64,000 bases of DNA from Halocafeteria seosinensis. Its lineage: Eukaryota; Sar; Bigyra; Bicosoecida. The notes under the pieces are model-generated. The model ran no database searches. It had not been told where the DNA came from and was given only the letters and a program-made list of their open reading frames with translations. Of the stretch, positions 6,001-49,999 are shown one piece after another (position 1 is the stretch's first letter; each line of letters begins with the position of its first letter). Position numbers and translations under genes: made by a program. Location: the NCBI GenBank assembly GCA_001687465.1, contig LVLI01000344.1, positions 1 to 64,000 of the forward strand, read 5' to 3'.

Positions 6001-9000
6001 GAACAGTACCTGAGCTCCCAGCAACAATGCCGATGTTGCCCGCAGACAAAACGCTGCAACTTGAGGAAAAGCGGATATCTCCGGAGCGGGATCCTGCGTT
6101 ACTCGTCAGAATGAGGACATTTCCTGAGCGTCGGCCGCAATGAGAACTGAGCTCTAAATGGCCCATGTTGTCGTCTCGAGAACATGAAAGAGCAGCTACG
6201 GTTCCACCTCTCGATGAAACGCTTTCTCCAGCTTTCAGGTGTATGTCTCCACCCCGTACCCCGGAGCTGTTTCCCACTTCTACCAACACTTCATCTCGAG
6301 AAAGAATACGTATACTGGGACTGGACAGGGTTGGATACGTGGGGACAGTCACAAAGTCTATGTCACCACTTCCATAGCCAGGCGGAGAGCGAAGCTTCAA
6401 GGAGCGCGTGTTGGAATACACTCTACTTCCGGAATGTACAAGGAAACCACCGGGAATCCCATTCCGTGACTCACCTGCTTGAAAGACGGATTGCACGGCA
6501 TTGACAGCAACCGATGATACTCCAAATGTTCCACCGCCAAAAGCCTGATAGCCAATACTGCCACCTACCACGGAAGCAGAGCCTGTAGACCATCCGGTTG
6601 ACTGGGATTCTATTTCAATCTTCTCTCCATGAAAATTGAGACTACCGGAGTCGTTTGATACCCCACTTTGAACGTTAACGATGTTTCCAGATAGTCGCAC
6701 GTTTCCTGAACCTCTCGTCAACATTGCGATACTACCTCCTTGTTCACCTCCAGTGTGACTCCTGAGGGACAAACTCCCTGAAGATGTGTTGCCCCATCCC
6801 GTAGAGATTTTTACTCCTCCTGAAAAATTAGCTTTGCCGGTAGCTCCACCGACTCCTCCAGAAATAGCAGAGGACCCGGTAAATAGCTCGACACCGCTTG
6901 ATCCAATGTCCTCGCCAAGGCTGCCAAAATCTACATTGCCACTAGCGCCCCCGTCCGATGATCCGGATTTCACCAAAACTCTGCCTCCGACAAGCCCTTT
7001 TCCGGACTTGATACCTATAGACTCGTCGTCATGCGAGGTTTGTCCGTAGAAGAAAACGCCACCACTATTCAAGACACTATTTCCGGTTTTGAAACTGACT
7101 GTCCCCGAGTTCTCCAGGGTTGATCCCGTCGTGACATTGAGGGTGCCAAATCCCGAATTGAGATTAACGTCCCCTCCAACCGAACTCGAGCTACCAGATT
7201 TCAAATCAACAGTCGCTCCTGATATCTGGACAATTCCAGACATATGCTCAGTAGAGAATGCTGTCAAGAGAACTGCACCAGGGATCCCATTCCAGGATTC
7301 TCCAGCACGCACATAAATAGAATCAGATGATAACGTTATTCCCCCAAATGCGTCGAGTGAGTCACCGCTCTCTGACCTTAAACCTACGTCACCACATGAC
7401 GACCGGAGGTCGATCGACGATCCCTGACCAAAGGAGGCTAACGTGACGGGTGATTTCTTCGCATTCACGACAATATTTCCTGACTGCTTAGAACCACCGC
7501 CGGTAGTAATTGAGACAGCTCCGTGTTCAGCCGAAACGAGTGCATTGCCTGAGCTCTGAATAGCCTCCGCCGAGCGTAGCGATATGCTACCTGAGCCAGA
7601 CCCTTCCCCAGAGGAAAATGATCCCCGGTTAGCTATCGTGGATATGTCGCCCCCAAGATACCTCCCATCTCCTGCCTGTAACAACATCTTCTCTCCCTGA
7701 AGGAAACCAAGACTTCCACCACTGCGTGTGCCATTACCTGCCTGTACCGTTACACAGCCTCCTACGAATCCAATGTCTCCACCACTTGTTCCATGTCCTC
7801 CCGCAAGCTGTAAGTTTCCCGACACATACGCTGAGAACAATTTAGACCGCACCAACGCCGACCCACCCATGCTTTGACTACCCGAAGCTGCGACGGCTTC
7901 AATACTTCCGGCTCTAAGCTGAGACAACCCAGTCTTCACAAATGCTCTCTTGCCGAACACACTAACGCCTGAACTACTGTAAGACTGGGAGTTGCCGGAG
8001 CTCAAGGCCACTTTCCCAGTGCCACAGTTAGAAGACGAGGTTCGTATGGAGATTGGTTTTCCCAACGCCCGCAGAGACATTTCGCCGCCCGACATACCTT
8101 GGACAGATCCCCCAGCAGTATAGTAATGATGCTGAGACTTCACATCTATAAAGCCTGATGAATCGTTCTTCGAACTGTGGGTGCTTATTTGGAGGTTTCC
8201 GGAAGCCTTTTTCCCGGGAGATGTGCGCAGCGCAACAGTGGAGGCTTTGTCTCCACTGTGCACGGAAATGGAAGGTGATCCAATACTAACATGTCCACCG
8301 TGTGAGGTCCCTGAGTCCCCAGCTGAGACTCGAATGGCCCCTGCATTGTCTTGTGACATCTCACCCGAAGCAACTTGTATATCACGGGCAGAAACGAGCT
8401 CAACACTTGCACTTCCAATCAAACCAGATCGAGTCACAAGTGAGATATTGCCACTTCCTCGCATGTTTTTCCCAGAAACAAGGGTCAAACCTCCTGCACT
8501 CTTCAAGGAGATATGTCCCAGAGTATCGCCAGTTCCAGTTCTTAGACTGAGAGACGAAGAAGATGTGTATGTAATGTTGCCCGAATGACCAGGCGTCGTG
8601 TTACCAGTATGGAGCATCAGGTCTCCACTCCTTGTGGAGTCTACCGATTGGAGAGTCACAAACTGTGCACTGATGCTCACCGCGGAGGCGGTAGCAGACG
8701 AAGTACCATGTGTGTATATAGAACCTCCTGTGTTTCCCCCTCCCGCAATTACTTGGGCACTTTGAGCTAGTACACTAATGTCTCCGGAATTGTATTGTGT
8801 ATCTCCACTCGTCAAGTGCACGCTATCCCTTGACCAAAGGTTGACATCCCCAGCCTTAGATTCCCGGCTCCTGGACACTCCTGCGTTCACTAAGACGTCC
8901 CCCGTGTTTCCCCCGTGCTCCGCGATACTTCCACTGGCAACATGAATGGATCCCGCAGAGCGGGAACGAGATGTAACAAGGTAAACATCACCACTGTCCC

Positions 9001-32807: not shown

Positions 32808-34316
32808 TCACCACCAGAAACTAACACTGAAGCTGAGCGACATGGATCGTATCTGGTGCCAACAACCCTGTGGGATGTATAACGTATCTCCGGGTCCAAT
32901 CAGAGCCTCGTATAGTGGGACTTCCTTAAAGTGAGGAAACTCGTCCAAGTCTGGATTATCTGGGTCCACTTGGCTGGTGTTAGACATTATACCCGGATGA
33001 GGATACAGTCTTTCTCGATAGCGATTGTCCACGAGAACGACACGCTTCCATCCGACAACCTGAGCGAGAAGGTTATGATACGGATCATTATGCAGACACG
33101 AAAGCGTGCCAGTAGGTCCCAACCACGCATTGATCTGAACCTCTCCTGTGGCCTTGGCTTCTTCATCCATTAAAGCGCAATAGTCCGGTACAAGGATATC
33201 TTGGCGCAATTCAGGAATTTGCTCAAAGAGTGGATGCTGTGCAAGATATCCAGTTGTTCCTGCACCATTACAATTATCATTTTGTTTTCCTAAAACGTAT
33301 CGATCTATGAAGTTGTCGAAACGGAGAAGTTCCTGGCCCCAGTTACCGGCCATATAGTGGTCTCCTGTCTCCACGGGCACAGTCCGCAAACCAGCTTGTC
33401 TTTTGAGGTACGATACATTTGCCCACTCTCTGGTTGAGCCATCACTTGTTTTGCCAAAGGCTGGCCACTCGTTTAAGAGCCCTTCAATAACCACTGGAAC
33501 TTTGTTGCCCATGTACTTCTGGAAGAAATCGAATAACGAGGGTGGCTCAGTCACTCGCTCAATCCCATACACTAGCCCTTTATTAGGAGCCTGCGAACTT
33601 CGAAAGAGGTTGGAACGCATTTCTGGAGTAAGTTCACAAGGCTGCTGGATGATTTCGTCTGTTCCTGCATCTTCGGTATTCTGTCCAGATAATTTTGTCA
33701 TTTCTCTTATAATGTCTTGAATTTGACCACGTTCTTGCGGTGTCGTCGTCATGCAGGCCAAATCCAATGTTCTTAACCACTCGGCGACGCGCTCGGTGCA
33801 TGTTTCTTCTATGTGCAAGAGCATATCGTAGTATATAACGAATCTGACAGCTATGGCATATAACACTCGCCAACCCAGAGCCACATCTTTCCAAACTCTT
33901 CCATGAAGCATATCCCAGCAAATTCGTTTGGCTTGGCTACCTAATTTCAGCTGCTGCGAGAGGACAGACGACACCTCATGGGTCCTCTGTCTTTTGGTGG
34001 GTTCAACAGGAGGATTCTCTTCGACACGAGTACTCGTTATGCTCTCAGATCGTCGGTAAGCAGCATGGCCGTAGGTATATGCTTTGTGAAGTACCTGAAC
34101 CACTCCCTGCGCTAGATGCCTATCTGCTGAGGACATAGAATCGATCCAGTGCTCATCACTCGCCTTTTCAATGCCACATCTTCTTTCCTTGGATCTATCT
34201 TTGTCAACTTCTGGGTTCTCTCTATGGTATAACGCTTCGATTCGACCATAATCTTGGCGTGCCACTTCCCTTAGTTGGCGTGTGATAAGCCTCTTCCACC
34301 TGTCGAAATCGTCCAT
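32808..34316 (-). CDS. KDM8: JmjC-domain oxygenase, KDM8/JMJD5-like
   Basis: An Fe(II)/2-oxoglutarate-dependent oxygenase. Family members act as protein hydroxylases, with reported roles in cell cycle and circadian control. It is a single exon of 502 residues. Seen: an N-terminal helical domain (about 1-240), then the JmjC core from VPVVIEGLLNEWPAF, with RTVPVETG, GYLAQHPLFEQIPELRQDI, INAWLGPTGTLSCLHNDP, NTSQVDPDNPDLDEFP, LYIPQGCWHQIRS and the terminal LSFSVSFWW. The iron ligands HxD (LHND) and the distal His (WHQ) are present, so it should be active. The order and spacing fit JMJD5 rather than FIH or HSPBAP1. The substrate cannot be read from the sequence. Confidence 0.92.
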   Translation of the reverse strand: MDDFDRWKRLITRQLREVARQDYGRIEALYHRENPEVDKDRSKERRCGIEKASDEHWIDSMSSADRHLAQGVVQVLHKAYTYGHAAYRRSESITSTRVEENPPVEPTKRQRTHEVSSVLSQQLKLGSQAKRICWDMLHGRVWKDVALGWRVLYAIAVRFVIYYDMLLHIEETCTERVAEWLRTLDLACMTTTPQERGQIQDIIREMTKLSGQNTEDAGTDEIIQQPCELTPEMRSNLFRSSQAPNKGLVYGIERVTEPPSLFDFFQKYMGNKVPVVIEGLLNEWPAFGKTSDGSTREWANVSYLKRQAGLRTVPVETGDHYMAGNWGQELLRFDNFIDRYVLGKQNDNCNGAGTTGYLAQHPLFEQIPELRQDILVPDYCALMDEEAKATGEVQINAWLGPTGTLSCLHNDPYHNLLAQVVGWKRVVLVDNRYRERLYPHPGIMSNTSQVDPDNPDLDEFPHFKEVPLYEALIGPGDTLYIPQGCWHQIRSMSLSFSVSFWW

Positions 34317-34969
34317 GGCAACATGATATTCCCTAAAATGACTCTAGAAAGCGGGCATACTTTATTGTTGAGTGGTTCGGCGTCTTCGACACTACAAACC
34401 ACTGTCGGTTCTCTCAAGTTAGCACTGCTAGCTTACATTACCGGTACGTTGACAGTAATATATGTGAACTTGCTATGGTTCGAAAAATTCAATTACGAAG
34501 GATAATGAAGGAAAAAAGAATGCAAAGGGTAAGCTGTAGCAGCCATGGAACTGGTCTAGTTGTCGGAACCGGTTGGTGGAGTACTTAAACAGTACGCGTC
34601 TGAAGCGTCACCATAAGGAAGTTTGTCCGTCCACCATCACAGTCAAATCCATTTGGGCACTTAGGGTATTTCATGAATTTGAGAACAACGTAACTCCAGA
34701 AACTCCCCGCATCCAGTGAGGCCCCGTACCCAATATACGTAATAAAACTTCAAAACAGTTTGCGATTTTTGTATTGATTAAGGTGCCTTAGTCACTGTTG
34801 TCGAAGTGTTAAAGTGCCAATATCCAGAAGAACCGGCAGCTTGGTTCGTAGTTTCATATCCGTGTAAAACGCAATGCTTACCGATTCATAGGAAATTTTA
34901 TTGCATCGTCTGCCGAAATCGCGTTTATCCTTGAGCATTTTCGTACAGGAAAGCACTCTGAGACTCCGA
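34317..34969. other. Intergenic region upstream of KDM8
   Basis: About 650 bp. It should contain the KDM8 promoter. Short open frames are present but show no domain and no consistent splice joins. No repeat or RNA gene was recognised. Confidence 0.5.
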
Positions 34970-36110: not shown

Positions 36111-39100
36111 ATGAACAGTGAGGAGAAACAAGGGACGACTGCTTCCCTCGTGGAACAGGCTTCCTTGAAAGCACGGCAACTGTCTTCGTCCCAATACAAC
36201 ATGGAACTAGTCAAAGAAAGCTTGGACTTTGAGTCGATTGATGAACTAGAGTATGTCAACCGCAAGAAAGCGCTACTGACCCAAGACGACGCGTTAAACT
36301 TGCAATGCGATTGCCGGACACAATTTGATGATGAGCTTATATGTGAGGATGAACGCTGCATTAATTATACCTCTAGAACAGAATGCCCCTTGGGAACATG
36401 TAGTAAACGACGGTGTGGAAATAAACGATTTCAGAAGAAGCAGTGGAAGGAGGTGGAGGTAACACCAGTAAGTCTGACTTTAGTTATTGAACTCGTGCAT
36501 ACACCTTTTTCTATTAAATGAAGCATGTCAAACTCTGTATGTATACTGTGCTTCTTATTCAGACGGAGAAAAAAGGAAACGGATTATTCTTGTGCGAACC
36601 AGCTGATGCTGGGGATTTCTTGATTGAATACGTTGGGGAAGTTATTTCAGAAAATGAGTATAATTCCCGGATGGACAAGTATAGACAGGAGGTGTGTGAA
36701 CTCGTTGATGTGCTGTCAAAGGGAAATTGATTGAAGCCCTCAAACTCTGTGCTTACGTCGCAGAAGAGGAAACACTTTTACATGCTTCAGATCAGAAAAC
36801 AAGAATACATTGATGCTTGCCAGAAAGGAAATGTAGCTCGGTTTATTAACCATAGTTGCGAGCCAAACTGCAGGACAGAAGTATGGTAGGTGCAAAGAAA
36901 ACAGATTATACCTTGTTGGCGTAACCATCCTCCGTTCATGTCTTCAGGCACGTGGGAAAAGAGGAGCGCGTGGGGATTTTCGCTATTAGGGATATCCGCG
37001 CCCAAGAGGAATTATGTTTCGATTACCAGTGGCAACGTATTGGTGAAGACAGAATCAAGTGCTACTGCGGGACGGCCAGCTGTAGAGGCTATTTGGGGGC
37101 TAAAGAAGATGATAGAGCAGGGCTCCCCTGTGGGCGATTTCGTGAACCACATGAGACGGAACTGGCGGCGGGCAAGTCCCTCATTAATAAATTCGTGCGG
37201 GTCCATAAGGATAACGATGATTTAATAGGGTCTTCTAAGAGCCGGGCCAAAGCAGTTAAAGCGAAGCGTGAGAGTTCAGTGGAACTAAGTGAGGATGTTG
37301 TAGAGGAAGATGAGGATGGAATATGGTTTGCCGCCCGCGTTAGCGATTATAATAGCACAACCGGTGGGCACAAACTCGCGTATTTGTTGGATGACACAAT
37401 ACAAGAAGAGGATTTGAGAACCGATCGATGGCAAATCCTGGAGGCCTCTCACTTGGGGCCAACGACGGCGTTAGATGAAGCAGAACCAAGCGAGGTTGCC
37501 AATCTGCCTCGTCGCCACAATGCGGAGCAAATGGAAGAACTAAAGAGGGAGTACCAACAGCAGCTCCAGGAAGAAGAAGATGCGGCTGCTGTTGCAGCCG
37601 TAGAAAGGCAAAAACGTGCGAGAAAGCTCCTGGAAAAGACTCAACGTGCTTGGGAAAAGAAACTCGAAGAACAAGAAAAAATGTCTAGGCGGAAGAACAG
37701 AGAAATTGCCGAGCAGCTCAGAAAGAGCAGGGAAACGGAAGAAACAGATTTGGAGGAACAAGAGCAGCCCAATTCGGCTTCCAAAATTGACATGCGCCGG
37801 AAGATGGAAAGTTTCCTCCAGCAAGATGGTAAAAGCCAAGAACAAGAGGCTTTAGAATACTGGGGTGAAAGTGCGGTATCTCATCGCTCGACTGCAACAA
37901 GCCAGGCTAGCCATTATTCCGGAAAACGGAGCCGCCAAGCACATAATGACGACAAATCGCGAAAAAAGAGGAGACTGAAAGACAAGCGACGCTTCTCATT
38001 CACCGAGTACAGGAATCATGCAGGAGAAGTGAATCTACGGCCAACCCACGGTTCCCGGTTTCCGTTTGAATTGAGTTGGCGCTTTGCCGTACGAGATGTT
38101 ATCTCACCACCTTCAAAGAAGCACGGCTTCTCGTTGGAAGATGAGTACCTTTGGAGGTATCATGCTCAGCTATTGGTGGCCCAATCTGCGAGGGACCTGG
38201 AGGTGTCCTTCAGAATGATGCTTCGAGCAATGCTAATAACGCACAAGTTTTGCAGCGCATGTAGCCTAAAAAATATCCCCCTGAGGGCGGTCGTATCTGC
38301 TTCCCTTTTAATTGCTCACAAATTTGAGATGCAGGTGGATGATAAGCAAAAGTTTTCTGTCTCCAGAATATCTAGAAGAGTGGCGAAGACTGCAAAGGAG
38401 ATGATTTCCAAACATTCCAAAGATTTTACTTTCAGCCAGCAAGACGAGCCTGGACCAGTCCGGGAAAGCATTCATGGATATTGCTGTGGAGTCCTTTATG
38501 AGAACTCTTTTTCTTCACCTGAGCAGCTGCAAAGAGCATCAGAGCTATCTGCCTTTAGTCCCGAAGGTATGACGTCAACGGATTATTTCGCCATGGAATG
38601 CCTGCGGGCTGTGCATACTGAACGTCTCGTTCTGGGTGTTTTACGCTTCTGCGTAGACGACATAGATGTCGAGGGGATAATTGGTTTGCTGGATACGAGC
38701 TGGGCTTCGAGCTTTCTGGGGGATGAGAAACGCAGCAAAACGAAACGAGATGAGATTTTGAAAAAGCACCCGTGGTTGCAATATGCCGCGCGGGCTAAGG
38801 ATGAAGATGGACAAATCTGTTATTGGAGAAGCCTCACGCAGTTGGTGGTTGTAATTTCGTTAATTACTCGACCTTGGCTTTGGAACCTACACGTTCCTGA
38901 AGCTGTGATCAGTTCCATTGCTCATTGGTGCGCATATGACGCCGATCCGGAAAACGTCAATTCTGCCAACAAGGGTACATTTGAGCTGGCATTTCAGCAC
39001 CGTTACCTGTACATTCAGTCAGCGTCGAAGACTCTGCGCTATTCTTCGCTTAAGACTCTTGTAACTGGAAGAGATATTAGATACTTGCTACCTTTCGTTG

Positions 39101-41109
39101 ATCATCGTTTCGGAGTGCGGTATTCGCAAGACTGTGTGCCTGTTGCCCGTTTAGCTTGTCCAACCGTCTCAAACGAAGACTTGGAAAAGGATATCCGAGA
39201 ACGTGTGCAAGTCCTGTCTAACATGATCAACGATGATGAATCGGAAACGAGCATCAGCGGCGACGGTTTCAGTGAGACCCTTCCCGTAGACCTACTTCAG
39301 TCAGAACAATGGAGATTCAGACATGAGATCGCGTTGCCTACGTCTCGCGACGACGAGACAAAGCTGCGGACTGTAAATGATTTCGAATTCGTGGGTCAAC
39401 TTTCTGGAGGCTGCTATGTGGCAATTGACCACGGCCGTCACTTGGATAAACCAAAGCTAGTTTTACTGAAGAAATGGCCCGAGAGAGGATGTGAACAACC
39501 TTCGGAATCCCTAACTGCAATAGCAGATCAGAAATTGTATGGACTTGCCTCTTCGGCGTTTTGCGAACTGAATTATTTCCGTATACTGCACTGTCCTTGG
39601 AGAGACACAAACCCGAAAGAGGAGTTGGTCCAGTCCATTTACGAAGGTATATCGCGCAGCGTATCCTCGCCTTCCAGAGCAAAAGTCAACAGGAATATAA
39701 TCTTACCAGTGGAAATGGTTGTTGGTGAGAGTTTTCTCTCTTCGATGAGCTATGTTGTTGGTGACAATGATTCCATCCCTGTGCAAACGGCCGACCCGCC
39801 ATGTACAGAGTGTGATATTGCTGGTGTACCTGACATTCCTGATGGTAAGCTTCGGGAAGAGAACTTCATGGTAATGGAATACCTTCCTCACAACTTGAAA
39901 GGATTGACGATGGCAGGTGTGAACTTTACTCCGCCTTTCCAGTTAAAGTTTTCTTCTAGCGTCCTAAAAGCAGTACGGGCGCTACACCGGCACGATATTG
40001 TTCACCACCATATTAACTGCAATCACGTGCTTCTCTCGGACACTGGTGAGGTGAGGCTCTACGGGTTGGGTGATGCAAAATCGTTTGATCGGGCTTTCGT
40101 AAAAAATGCTGAGCAAAAGCTGAATAGCAAACCGAGCAAGGTTGATGAAACTGAGATTGTTTCTTTGGCTAATTCGTTTCGCGTAGATCCAACGAAAAAG
40201 GCAGGCTCTGCGCATGTCTGCCGACCGCCTGAGCTACTGATTGGGTGCTCTTTGTACTTGCCAGCTTCCGATATGTGGTCATTGGGCTGCGTACTTGCCG
40301 AGGCATACTTGGGGGAACCATTATTCGATGGTACAGCGACGATCAAAGAACTGGCAACTGACATTGCAAGGTTCTGTGGTAATTGGAGAAAGGCATGGCC
40401 AATGTGCAAACGTCTTACTGATGATGAGATGATCAGTGACGTAGCAGTGGTCACGGATGGTCTCAAGGCTCACTTAATGAAAAAGAACCTTCCCGAACCT
40501 CAAGCCAAGTTACTGAGCCATTTACTGCAGATCAATCCAGTCAAGCGTGTCACGGCGGAATCTGCTTTGCGCATGTCATTTTTCAAGAAGCACTCGCCTC
40601 CTCCTGATGACCGATTAGTGACTTTTTCGGCCAAGTTCCCGTTCGAAGAACTAAGAATAGACCCATCTGCACCAGTGGAAGGTTCGGAATTAGCACAAAT
40701 TCTACCGTTGCGTAGCTACGAAATGCGCCTAAGGGAAAGAAAAGCGCAAGTAGTGCTGGACAAAAGTTTTTGGAGGAACGTCCTTCAACGGATAGGTGCC
40801 CTTGGCTCCTCGCCCTCCGGAGAGAATGCTGGACATCCTGGGAAGAATGGTGAGATCGACAGTATGATGACCGATACAAGTCAAAGCGGGAAAAATCGTG
40901 AGTCGGGCACAACTCCTACGGAGTCAGGCCGCGGAGTCGATTCCCGAGGATCATATCATCATCACTCGAATTCTTACCGAGATTCTTCGAAGGATGAGAT
41001 GTACAGTAGCTCAAGCAGAACCGACGATGGAGACACCAAGCGGCAACTTGAGTACGATGAAGCGGTTAACTCCGACGAAGACAGAAGCAACAACGTAGAC
41101 ATGTCTTAA
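36111..41109 (+). CDS. SETD2/ASH1-type histone methyltransferase fused to a cyclin and a CDK-like pseudokinase
   Basis: Exons 36111-36467, 36563-36691, 36764-36885 and 36948-41109 join in frame to 1,589 residues. Domains: AWS (about 64-115, zinc cysteines in [16 protein letters not shown] and [13 protein letters not shown]); SET (about 119-235, [28 protein letters not shown]); post-SET ([13 protein letters not shown], about 241); a Tudor-like segment (about 325-370, [20 protein letters not shown]); charged coiled coil (about 398-474); basic stretch (about 525-560); cyclin-like fold (about 575-870, [26 protein letters not shown]); and a CDK11/12-like kinase fold (about 1010-1425, [41 protein letters not shown]). 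AWS-SET enzymes methylate H3K36. The kinase part lacks catalytic residues. The SET end, cyclin and kinase share one 4.16 kb exon, so the fusion is not an annotation join. Confidence 0.88.
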
Positions 41110-41788: not shown

Positions 41789-44700
41789 ATGGGTGCTGTC
41801 TGTACCAAGGATGGTGGGAAGCCTCGAGCACACACCGACTCTTCCAAAAAGGCGTACCATGGGCAAGAGTTCCGTGGAGGAGCGGCGGCGGCTTCTCCTC
41901 CTCAAGACGTCTTGTACAGCCACAGTGGGGATTCGGCCTCCACCCCTAACGGCAGCGGATGGGTACGTGCGCTTCCCACCCATTACTTTTATTTTTTATT
42001 TTTTGTGGCTGTACTATACATGCATACATGAGTGAATCTCTGTATTGTGCTCTCAGAGTCCTTCGGATAGCAAGAGCCCCTCAGCCAGAAAGTCGTCTTT
42101 GGTCCGAAGCCCAGTGCACCAAAAATCCACGCCGGCTGTCCCCGACATGCACTCAGTGGAGAACCTCTTCACGCAAGGCGAAGCTGATGCGGAATTCACG
42201 TATCGAGGAGGACTTAAGGGATTAAAGCTGAAGCCGGAACGTATGTCCACTGTCTTGTTTCCTTTTTTTTATCTTTCGGTTGGTTTACATTGGAGTGGTG
42301 ATACAGAAGTCAAACATCGACAGCTAAAGGATGGCGCTCAGCAAAGTACAGAATCACAAGCCATATCCACCGGGGCAATAGAGCCACTGAACCAAGAAGC
42401 CGAGGATGACAATAGGAGCACCAGTAGTAGCGACAGCGAAGAAAGCGAAAGGTCCCAGCTGGTATGCCTGGATTGGCTAGAAAGTGATAGCGTCGGTGGC
42501 GAGGATTTTACAGAGAGTCCCGAACGAATTTTCTACGAAAACGATGAACATTTTGAGCGAAACGATAGTGTTAAGGGACTTCGCATGACGATTGACGGTG
42601 GGTTCCAACCACAAACTGCCTCAGGTTCCGACAGTGAGGATGAGGACGTGGGGAACTTTCTCGAGGATGATGACGATGACAAGGATTTTGACGATGATTC
42701 AGGAAATGGGGAGTCAGCAGAGAATAAAGAAACTAAGTCTTACAGTGTAGGTCCCTTGCCGTTCGTGTATACTGAAGTGCGGCGTTTGCAGAGACACTCT
42801 TTAATTTGTTTACAGGAATCTAGCAATTCGGATCAAATGTACCAACAGCAGTTCAAAACGTTCGATAAAGAATGGCAGAGTCTCGAAACGCTGAACCTTG
42901 TGTTGGAAAGGTAGGCTTACGGTACACTAGTGTGGACTGTTTTCGTTGGAACGACAGGTACTTTTTTATTTATATTTCTTCTACTACCAGGGCTCACATC
43001 CCTCAGAAGGAGCAAGACAAGTTTTTGAGTGCTTTGCAACGTGAGGAGTTCTCGCCTGGAGAATATATCGTGAGGGAAGGTGAGATGGGAGACAAAGTAA
43101 GTCTATCGCTTGATGTTCGATGCCGTCTGCTTTGGGAACGACGAACTTTCCCGCTCTCCCAGTTTTACATTGTTACTGAAGGCGAAGTTGTAGTCACGAA
43201 AAATGCACCGCAACAAAGAAAGCGCCGAAAGAGTCTTGTAGAGATGATCTCATCCTCATTAAAACGGAAGGAGGTTGTTCCGGAGAAAACCATCACTCGT
43301 CTCTATCAGGTATGTTTAGAAACCGGCGCGGTATCTTCTGCTACTTCAAATCTTGCTTAGTCGGATAATCCACACAGGGACATTTCTTTGGTGAAACATC
43401 GTTAGCAAAGGAAGAACCTCGAAACGCGAACGTCAAAGTTCCGAATAACGGCACTAAAGTGGTCTGCATGAGCATGACGAAAGACGTCTTTAAGCCTTTC
43501 CTTGAACAAGAGACAAATTTCAGAAAGGTATATGCTTCATCATTTTATCCAATGTGACTCGACGGTTTGCCCTGAATGGTACATGTTCATTCGATGCAGA
43601 TGATTGGAGAGCTTATGATGAAGAAAGAAGAAGTGAGAAGTCGCCGGCAGAGTGTTAGCATGAGCAAACTCCAGGATATGGCCAAGAAGCAGACCCAGTT
43701 GACGGAAAATGATGCCAAAATATTGCGCTTGCTACGACGAGTTAGAACAAGTGATGGCCGAGTTGTCATAAACAATTATCTCCTGAATAAGCTCTTAGGC
43801 AAAGGGTCATACGGATCGGTATGGTTGGCGCGACACTTGGGATCCGGGCAACATTGCGCGGTTAAAGTAGTTTCTCGAAACATGCTAAGGAAAAAACAAC
43901 TCAATAAGCGAAGCAATGCTCAGGTCCTGAGAGAGTTCGCTGTGATGAAGAAACTCAGTCATCCCAACTTGGTAAAACTTCACGAAGTCATAGATGATCC
44001 CGAGGGAGACTTATTCTACATGGTACAGGCAAGTAGTCATACACGTTGTGTCCTAATCTTCTCGCTTCTCATTAACATGTTCACAAATGCTATGCTGTCA
44101 ACAGGAATACCTTGAACTCGGACCTATAATGACTGAGCAAGAATATAATCAACCACTCGAGTTATCTGTCGCTAGAAAGTACTTTAGAGATATCCTTAAC
44201 GCTGTGCATTATCTGCATTACCAGGGTGTAGCTCACCGGGATATCAAGCCCTCGAATGTACTCGTCTCCACCACCGGCAGTTGCAAACTGGCGGACTTTG
44301 GAGCGTCTGTCATCACCAAAGACGGGATGGCAGAACTCAATGACGTTAAAGGGACGCCTGCATTCCAACCTCCAGAAGTATTCACCACTGATAGTGGGGC
44401 ACGATACGATTCCATTGCCGTCGATATGTGGGCTGTTGGGGCGACGCTTCACTGCATGGTAGTTGGAATCCCTCCTTATATGGCGAACAATGAGCTCGAG
44501 CTTGTGGAAAAACTGAAAAATGAGCCGTTTCGACTTGCTGCAAACATTCAGCTGGATCCACATTTGAAAAATTTGCTACTGCGCCTACTCACCAAGGATC
44601 CAGAGAAGAGAGCTACCCTTTCCGACGTAATGGAGCATGACTGGGTTACCGATGAAGGCTCTATGCCTTTGGTGTTACCGACGTACAAGTATCTTGATCT

Positions 44701-47700
44701 CGCCAATAACTTGGAGACGATTGAAAAAGATATTGAGAGAAAGCAAAAACACCATGCCCGAAAAGCAGCCCGAAATTCGATATACAGGAGCCCTGACTCT
44801 CCAGGAATTGCTGAAAGGGGATACTCCTTTGGTAGTAGCAATAGCAGCTTTGGAGACTCGTACCATTCCATAGAGTCGAAGCCAAAGGCGGCCGAAGCAG
44901 AATCTCCTCCCAGAAGGAGAGCTAGGTCTGTGAGCGTTGAATCTGAGCCCTCGCCCGAGTACCGCCGAAATCATTTTGATGGTATTCGAGGTTCTCCTCT
45001 GGGACCGCGTGGGCAAGATGGAACATCCGAAAAGAACGATCTGACGGATGTGACCGACTCGGAAAGTCCCTCTCTGCCTCCGCAGGCTCCAACGGGGAAC
45101 CGGGCGAACTCCAGTTGGAATTCTCTAGATCAGTATAACAAATCCCGAGCTCGGTTTCGGTCTGCCGATGACTCTAGTCCCTATGGAGGAACCATCTTGC
45201 CACTTCACGGGGAAAGTACTTCGCACCAAGCAGAGTCGAATGCCCTTCCTTTTAGGCGGAGCGGTTCGAGTGACGCATCCGTCAAACACAATACCTCTCC
45301 TTTTGGGATCCGAATGAATAGCAGGAACAAGTCTCTGCGAGCAACGTCTTCCGCATACCACATGATGCGAGCTTCATCTCGGACCCTGAAAGAACGCTCG
45401 CCAGAGCGTAGCGGGCATGCAATGAAGCCTGTGGACGATGCATCAGCAGCTAAAGCTCACCTGCAGAAACTGAGGTCCCGAGAACAATTCTTTCTGAACA
45501 AGTTGAGTGCTGACAAAGGAACAGATATCTTACAGGAGCAAATACGTTCAACGTCTTATCCCGTAAACACGGAATCAATCATCGAAGAAATACTCTTTGA
45601 TGCCAGTGGCAGTGTCATTGACCCTCTTGAGACACCACATTCGAATTCAGGATCAACTGCTGGCAGTGGTCTTTCAGCTTCGCACTCAAACCTTCGCTCA
45701 TCTGCGGAAAATGGGAGAGGCGATTATAAGAAGTGCAATTCAGACGTACCGATGAAACACGGAGCAAATGAGCAGTCTATTGACGCTGAGCAACCTATTC
45801 ACAATGGATCCGATCTTACAACTCTTGATGTTTCTGCAGAAGAAGCGCATACAGTTGATATTTCAACGAACAGCTTTTCAAATCTGGGAGTGTCATCGGG
45901 GGACAGGCCACTTTCCACTGTGTTAGAAACACCTGCGTCTTCCGGTGGCACAAGTGGGAAAGCTTCGTCTGTATTACCCAGCTCTGACGAAGATGAGCCA
46001 AAGAGCGATCTTAAATTGTATACCTCGTTTTCTGAGCTTGAAAATAAATCATCTCGTGGACAATCTTCATTGACCCGGGCAGACGACTTTATGATGGTGC
46101 CAAAGGCGTCACACGCAGGGGGATCGGCCAAGGTAGTGTATCGAGTAGAAGGTGGAATTATGCGCGCTCATACTCTTCACGATGACCATCAAAAGAGCAA
46201 TTCATCTGAAGGCACTTCGAAGCTGGTCTCCCCAAAGGGCAGGGGATTTAGCGGCCCCGATGATACGATCGAAGAATCTGAGGAGCACCAGCTGGGCAAG
46301 TCCGACGACAACGATAACGATTCGAGTGACTTTAGCACTGCAGACGAAATTGAGACTGTCGACGATATGGAAGGGGATAAAATCAACAAAAACCTGGAAA
46401 CTGTGCTAGACGGACTCGGTAGAGTTCAAGACAAGCAGCTTGCAAACTTGACGAAGGAGGAAGCTCAGAAATGGAAATCTTGCCAAACTGATTTGCATCT
46501 GAATGTTCCCGCCACTGACGAGAAGATCCAATACTTAATTGATGAGGACATTCCACAACACAAATCTGTGGCCACAGCCGGATCGTTGCCGCGTCGAGAT
46601 GCAGGAAGAGACACAAGTGGCGCTACGTCGTACAGTACATCTGGCTCCGTGAATGCTCAACAGAAGGAAGCTCTCCCCCAGGTTGAGCAGCAATGCCAAG
46701 GCATTATGAGGCGAGACGTACGAGGAAAGAATGGGAAATTGGGACTGCTGTATGCCCTTGCAGCCCAGCAGGGCAGTCTTCCGGCTATGGAGGACCGTGC
46801 TGTTGTTATCCCCTCCCTAAATGAAGTTGCATCCCAATTCAGTTCCAATGGCTATCCTCAATGTGCGTATTTCGCAGTATTTGATGGCCACAGTGGAGAC
46901 TTGACGAGCTCTGCATTGGCACATCGTTTACATGAACATATACTAGCTCACAAGGCAATCACTAACCCAGATCCAACTTCGGCTTTAGTAGATGGATGTC
47001 TAGATTGTGACGAGGAGATACTGCAGGCTTCGAACAACGACATTTCCGGATCTACAGCTGTTGTCATATTTATGACAAAGCCCGATAGAGATTCCCCTAC
47101 GTACATTTACTGCGCAAATGTGGGTGATTCGCGTGCTATCCTTTCACGACACGGGACTGTGATAGAGCTTTCTGTTGATCATAAAGCGACTCGGCCTGAT
47201 GAATTAAAGAGAATAGAGAATGCAGGTGGGCACGTTGTGAACGGCAGGGTACAAGGTGTGCTGGCAATCTCAAGAGCATTCGGGGACGGTATGTGTCACA
47301 GCATCGAGCACTTCGTGCTGGTTTTTGACATTACGTTGTTCTTTCTCTTTCTACAGCTGAGTGCAAGAACGGACGTAACGAAGATATACCGACAAACGTT
47401 CTCACTGCCTCACCCGAGGTAATGCATGAAGCGGTCCAGCCGGAGGACGATTTTATTGTGGTATGTAAAGATTTTTTGAGGCGTGCGTTTGCTCTCTCAT
47501 AGGAGTTCCAATTGACGTACAGTTGGCCTCGGATGGTCTATGGGATGTAATGACAAACCAGGAAGTAGTCAATTACGTAAGGAGGCAGCTTTCGGAACAT
47601 GGAGATGTTACAAAGGCAAATGAGCAACTAGTGGAAAAGGCGATTGCCTCTAGTAACCATGATAACGTAACCAGTATCCTCATTGGGTTGAATCAGGGCA

Positions 47701-49456: not shown

Positions 49457-49999
49457 ATGGGAGTTGTAGAGACAATCGAAGGGGACCTAACTGAGCAGGA
49501 TGTGGATTATATTGTTCAACAATGTAATTGCAATTCCAATTCCGCCAAGGGACTATCGAAGGCAATATTTGAAAAGTTTCCTGAGACGAACATCTACTGC
49601 GGATCTCAGAAAGTGAAACGGAGAGAGCCTGGCGAAGTCTACGTTAGACCAACGGGAAAGGGACCCGATGAGCAGGGACCAAAACATGTCGTGAATCTTC
49701 TGGGACAAAATTCCACCGGACGCGCCAAGAAAGCAGAAACAAGAGAAGTGCGCCTTCAGTGGTTCAAACAGGCCTTGCGCAACTTCATGAAGCACACCCA
49801 GCTCGAAGGCCGAGACATTGCATTCCCGAAGAATATTGGCTGCGGATTGGCTGGCGGACGCTGGCGTGACTATCTTGATATTATTGAATGGTTTGCAGAG
49901 CAACTCCGAGAAAGCCGCGTTTTCATTGTTGAACTACCGCCTGTACCGTCGAAGTTAAAACGTAAACAGCGTGATTCCCGGGAAAGAAAACAATCGTGA
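49457..49999 (+). CDS. Macrodomain protein (Poa1/OARD1-like ADP-ribose hydrolase)
   Basis: Single exon, 180 residues. Macrodomains bind ADP-ribose; small stand-alone ones of this kind remove ADP-ribose from proteins or hydrolyse ADP-ribose-1''-phosphate. Seen: the opening strand ETIEGDLTEQ, VQQCNCNSN with the usual polar pocket loop, a central strand KHVVNLLGQ, the helix LQWFKQALRNF, and IAFPKNIGCGLAGGRWRDY, which is the conserved G-C-G-L-x-G-G-x-W binding loop. A lysine/arginine-rich tail (SKLKRKQRDSRERKQ) could be a nuclear signal. Assignment to the fold is firm; the exact enzymatic class is inferred. Confidence 0.82.
   Translation: MGVVETIEGDLTEQDVDYIVQQCNCNSNSAKGLSKAIFEKFPETNIYCGSQKVKRREPGEVYVRPTGKGPDEQGPKHVVNLLGQNSTGRAKKAETREVRLQWFKQALRNFMKHTQLEGRDIAFPKNIGCGLAGGRWRDYLDIIEWFAEQLRESRVFIVELPPVPSKLKRKQRDSRERKQS

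Follow-up and report, generated by a model that had tools for sequence, protein, structure and literature searches.

The 64,000-nucleotide window analyzed here (positions 1 to 64,000 of contig LVLI01000344.1 of the bicosoecid Halocafeteria seosinensis, forward strand) carries a gene at 36111-41109 (+) in which four exons encode a single polypeptide of 1,589 amino acids. This chain joins a SET methyltransferase of the type acting on lysine 36 of histone H3 (H3K36), a cyclin and a cyclin-dependent kinase (CDK)-like part. The fusion is real and its architecture is solid; its function can be proposed from its parts. The best explanation, which we put forward tentatively, is that the protein is a SETD2/Set2/ASHH2-class enzyme whose C-terminal T-type cyclin and degenerate CDK12/9-like kinase would serve as a docking or regulatory tail. 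The catalytic class is already known, and it is the presumed regulatory half that is new here. The loss of catalytic residues from the kinase-like part suggests that a former signaling enzyme now serves a chromatin enzyme as a docking module or switch. A literature search on the architecture and on the biology of the host, judged by titles and the openings of abstracts, returned no description of it.

The introns of the gene are GT..AG in every case, and the cyclin, the kinase and the junctions of both lie inside exon 4 (36948-41109), which is free of stops throughout, as was claimed in an earlier sequence-only reading that placed the junctions in a single 4.16 kb exon. In addition, a transcript-derived protein, P0002 (source label 'eukprot', record gb/GECG01004771.1), is the same as the window product at 1,584 of 1,589 positions. 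The substitutions, at residues 276, 512, 538, 696 and 822, suggest that this transcript does not come from the present assembly. An earlier donor for intron 1 (product of 1,586 amino acids) was ruled out, since the transcript places the donor 9 bases further on. The coordinates, the product length and the three folds in one chain given by the sequence-only reading are thus borne out by exon structure, domain and structure matches and transcript record; separate transcripts, which that reading had considered, are contradicted by this one record covering all 1,589 residues. It is hardly credible that neighboring genes were misjoined by the assembly or the gene model, or that the gene is decaying. 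That the cyclin part scores weakly in Pfam would fit such an artefact, but this explanation was rejected on the strength of transcript P0002 and of a relative with the same order at 50% identity (P0003, discussed below); the open frame and the even conservation also speak against it.

By class, the SET part belongs with SETD2/Set2/ASHH2; it is H3K36-type, as the sequence-only reading had it, and is predicted to methylate H3K36. Pfam SET is matched at 7.9e-26 with the N-terminal 300 residues and at 3.5e-25 with P0002. The AWS match is weak (18.1 bits, E 0.0028, with the N-terminal 300 residues and 16.5 bits with P0002, against a cut-off of 23.3), and this region is aligned through in the structure comparison. 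Among solved structures (best 60 of 125 matches), Set2 and SETD2 lead (1e-53 and 1.6e-52), followed by NSD, ASH1L, MLL and EZH2. Database matches to the SET part, where specifically named, are mostly SETD2, Set2 or ASHH2 (best 120 of 448 significant), and SET with post-SET is closest to SETD2/Set2. By eye, NHSCEPNC, FDYQW and the post-SET cysteines are intact. Four SETD2/Set2/ASHH2-type queries were compared by tblastn with 16 loci of the genome, in which loci had been made for 8 of its 18 SET matches. The fusion gene obtained the best E-value with all four queries via linked exons, one margin being small (2.3e-34 versus 6.0e-33). The genome also holds a second gene with AWS, SET, post-SET and a PHD finger (C387, L050). 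It may be a second SETD2-like gene, while its PHD match suggests an NSD type.

The kinase part is a conserved CDK-like pseudokinase, predicted to be inactive: it has a CDK-type fold from which the HRD aspartate, the DFG aspartate, the catalytic asparagine and the glycine-loop residues are gone in both species in which it was found, so that the two catalytic aspartates of an active CDK are missing. Pfam Pkinase is matched at 1.6e-18 over profile positions 72-263 only, leaving the small lobe uncovered. The nearest solved chain is CDK12 (E 2.7e-22), with CDK5 and CDK2 matching too; database matches are CDK, CDKG or CDK11 where named, and all 17 of them carry PF00069. Identity between the two species is 56-57% in this part, and the activation segment contains a conserved insert. 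The DFG aspartate is kept in seven of seven comparator kinases (six DFG, one DLG). Four of the compared rows (P0136, P0130, P0131, P0124) are database CDKs excised by searching for HRD, which is therefore present there by construction. L032-L034 come from three kinase places among 20 genome matches, with frames picked by motif; the L032 row covers the large lobe only and the L033 row starts past the HRD position. The CDK11/12-like kinase of the sequence-only reading thus stands as a CDK12-like affinity, while the loss of the catalytic residues had been missed.

In view of this loss, the mechanism that the sequence-only reading proposed, in which the writer is merged with its upstream cyclin-CDK, does not stand in its original form. 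An active bifunctional enzyme of this kind would phosphorylate the tail of RNA polymerase II (Pol II) or a histone, so that one protein both makes and uses the signal. The cyclin T-like and CDK12-like affinities and the retained beta-3 lysine and alpha-C glutamate fit such an enzyme, but with the catalytic motifs lost in two species, and another CDK in the genome whose motifs are intact, it is judged very unlikely. The loss in both species likewise makes the fused kinase unlikely to be the upstream kinase of the Pol II C-terminal domain (CTD).

The cyclin part resembles a T-type cyclin. Pfam Cyclin_N scores 14.3 bits on P0002 (E 0.035), below the cut-off of 23. Against solved structures, the single cyclin sequence finds cyclin T1/T2 in 13 of 19 rows at E <=10 (best 0.0027), and a two-species profile finds cyclin T in 13 of 18 rows (best 3.4e-5). 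This match covers the first box only, about 90 residues, and its alignment opens with the W-F...PS...G segment of cyclin T; we take the W-F...PS N-terminal stretch to be a signature of T/K/L-type cyclins. Between the two species, identity is 56% over residues 556-700, which include the first box, and 39% over 701-925. Two other profile comparisons were discarded: a 99.7% match of profile A6 to A5 is regarded as artefactual, both profiles containing P0003 together with its cyclin region, and the solved-structure matches of profile A3 came mainly from the P0003 kinase, the P0003 row being untrimmed. The cyclin fold of the sequence-only reading therefore holds for the first box, although the Pfam score is below the cut-off and the second box is unmatched.

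The relative P0003 (ENA source, from a 63,228-base contig) shares 50% identity with the fusion protein, starting at residue 253. Its single chain runs from the post-SET tail through to the kinase, and the parts follow one another in the same order. Its first residue is a methionine inside that tail, a stretch in which 19 of 23 residues are shared; its SET exons probably lie upstream of the recorded frame. PF00069 was present in one of the 120 listed SET-part homologues, namely P0002 (best 120 of 448 significant, from 628 candidates). The homologue search reaches relatives that share short exact words, and the cyclin-kinase order is backed by two species. Viral contigs searched with two peptide patterns yielded no relative.

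With SETD2/Set2 the fusion protein shares SET and post-SET, next to a weakly scoring AWS-like region, and SETD2 and Set2 are its best solved-structure matches. It differs in its C-terminal half, which is cyclin and pseudokinase. No SRI domain, the C-terminal mark of strict SETD2/Set2 membership, was reported on it (PF08236, maximum E of 10; HMMER filters remove most weak matches), and Pfam reported no WW domain on it. ASHH2/SDG8, the plant H3K36 methyltransferase, belongs to the same SET class and supplies many of the best homologues. Most listed ASHH2 entries contain PF07496, which we take to be the CW domain, whereas none was found in the fusion protein, where cyclin and kinase stand instead. 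As for P-TEFb (CDK9-cyclin T) and CDK12-cyclin K, the cyclin box is nearest to cyclin T and the kinase to CDK12, but here both are part of one chain, with the cyclin before the kinase, a kinase without catalytic residues, and a SET domain joined to them. CDK11/CDKG kinases are also among the named matches of the kinase part; unlike it, the three compared and P0136 keep the aspartate of DFG/DLG. We know of no CDK11/CDKG kinase fused to SET.

In the docking or regulatory reading that we favor, the cyclin and the pseudokinase would pair in cis, as in P-TEFb or CDK12-cyclin K. The module would act non-catalytically: by contact with the CTD or with an elongation factor it would recruit SET to elongating Pol II, and it would perhaps relieve or impose autoinhibition of SET. 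The tail would thus sit where SETD2 has its SRI domain. In Set2/SETD2, the SRI and an autoinhibitory region do the jobs proposed here for the cyclin-pseudokinase half (background on the Set2/SETD2 mechanism in PMC4446442). This proposal goes with one chain, a cyclin-kinase order in two species, catalytic motifs lost in both, and the missing SRI match. A more specific version, possible but on the unlikely side, is that a SETD2-type methyltransferase took up a CTD kinase-cyclin pair, which then lost its catalysis; once a writer of the CTD signal, the pair would now be a fused Pol II-elongation reader replacing SRI.

Rather unlikely, and somewhat less so than the other alternatives, is an allosteric sensor, in which the pseudokinase-cyclin half senses a cell-cycle or signaling partner and opens or closes SET independently of Pol II. 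Pseudokinases are often allosteric switches, and the conserved insert in the activation segment would suit this role, but the cyclin and kinase parts are nearer to the transcriptional than to the cell-cycle type, though CDK5 and CDK2 match the kinase too. It is more doubtful that the fused cyclin acts as a scaffold, to which an active CDK such as the C306 kinase (described below) would bind in trans and so be brought to chromatin along with the methyltransferase. The genome does have CDK and cyclin genes separate from the fusion, but the fused kinase retains its PSTAIRE-like helix, which favors pairing in cis.

Several results weigh against the docking reading. The second cyclin box had no significant match when the two-species profile was compared with solved structures, and a cyclin-region profile found nothing in the genome's own cyclin K/T-like protein. 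A structure model of cyclin and kinase was useless, with a mean predicted local distance difference test score of 33.8. The retrieved P0003 sequence is without a SET domain, so that the same order in a related genome, a point raised by the sequence-only reading, was recovered for post-SET tail, cyclin and kinase and not for the SET part. C387 comes close to the fusion gene with the SETD2-type tblastn queries and, by best single piece, beats it in three of the four (132/91, 139/81 and 120/90 bits). Also, an SRI domain is found on another protein, at C313, 3883-4047 (L049:3853-4242), with 31.7 bits against a cut-off of 23.5, and recruitment could run via this protein. The same region has weaker overlapping matches to other helical families. 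The C313 protein is rich in arginine and serine (RS-rich) and apparently separate, with no SET in the listed frames nearby; its stand-alone SRI could make this protein the reader of the CTD that is wanting in the methyltransferase.

The assembly (30.6 Mb, 605 contigs) contains further parts of such a system. At C306 lies a CDK in which HRD and DFG are both intact and the tail is RS-rich. The solved chains closest to it belong to various CDKs (Cdc2-like, PHO85, CDK16, CDK13, CDK12), and it would be CDK12/13-like by its tail and PSTAIRE-region sequence only. Further CDKs include a CDK10/11-like gene at C39 and another at C111, their subtypes presumed from motifs. C415 has a cyclin K/T-like gene, for which cyclin K is the top solved structure (1.7e-11), and Pol II-type heptad repeats at C136 lie in a 1,771-residue frame, taken for its heptads as a putative RPB1. 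Because this separate CDK, the cyclin K/T-like gene, the heptads and the SRI are present, the fused module seems to be an additional one rather than the only CTD-type kinase that the cell has. The fused copy is, as far as these comparisons indicate, an added, degenerate module, with the separate CDK (C306) and cyclin (C415) kept. It provides a natural case in which a methyltransferase acting after CTD kinases bears a degenerate cyclin-CDK copy. If the module docks on Pol II, this would be a second evolutionary solution for coupling H3K36 methylation to elongation, and it would exemplify the conversion of a CDK-cyclin pair into a non-catalytic domain.

Table 1. Positions in the window of the fusion gene, its exons and the parts of its product.
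Feature	Position	Strand	Residues	Remarks
Whole fusion gene	36111..41109	+	1,589 aa	4 exons
Exon 1	36111..36467	+	1-119	N-terminus and AWS region
Exon 2	36563..36691	+		opening portion of SET
Exon 3	36764..36885	+		SET core with NHSCEPNC
Exon 4	36948..41109	+		SET end, cyclin, kinase and tail in one open frame
AWS-like zinc region	36330..36440	+	74-110	under Pfam cut-off
SET domain	36575..37029	+	124-230	across exons 2-4; SETD2/Set2 class
Post-SET	37054..37098	+	about 239-253
Tudor-like segment	37165..37464	+	276-375	by eye; 61% identical in P0003
Charged region	37507..37839	+	390-500	by eye; probably coiled coil
First cyclin box, T-type	38071..38337	+	about 578-666	with WRF...SPPSKKHG
Remaining cyclin region	38338..39114	+	667-925	second box unrecognized by sequence
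CDK-like pseudokinase	39355..40614	+	1006-1425
Glycine-loop equivalent	39403..39426	+		SGGCYVAI (P0003 SSSCFVAI)
Beta-3 lysine equivalent	39469..39471	+		retained
Alpha-C glutamate	39565..39567	+		retained, in PSTAIRE-like SSAFCEL (P0003 PSAFREL)
HRD site	40003..40011	+		HHH (P0003 HQV)
DFG site	40063..40071	+		GLG in both species

Between post-SET and cyclin, the Tudor-like segment (residues 276-375) gave no match to Pfam or solved structures. The host is probably non-photosynthetic, since a search of the genome for psbA/D-type and light-harvesting genes gave no match.

A KDM8/JMJD5-like cupin/JmjC gene (32811-34343, -; Cupin_8 9.6e-42, ARM_KDM8_N below the cut-off) lies about 1.8 kb from the methyltransferase gene in head-to-head orientation. 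KDM8 is reportedly an H3K36me2 demethylase, which is disputed. Further on, 42869-47422 (+) seems to hold a single gene. It shows a weak match to a cyclic-nucleotide-binding domain, together with protein kinase (1.2e-38) and PP2C phosphatase (3.7e-37) domains, the latter two in a common open frame of 1,121 residues. At 49517-49882 (+), read with stops masked, a Macro-domain match reaches 22.3 bits against a cut-off of 22. The first part of the window (1-24000, ~24 kb) has a higher guanine-plus-cytosine (GC) content (49-53%) and a GC skew that is negative throughout. Its plus-strand frames are proline-rich and of doubtful coding value, and it contains a 300-base direct repeat (96%) at 7965 and 12864, 4.9 kb apart.
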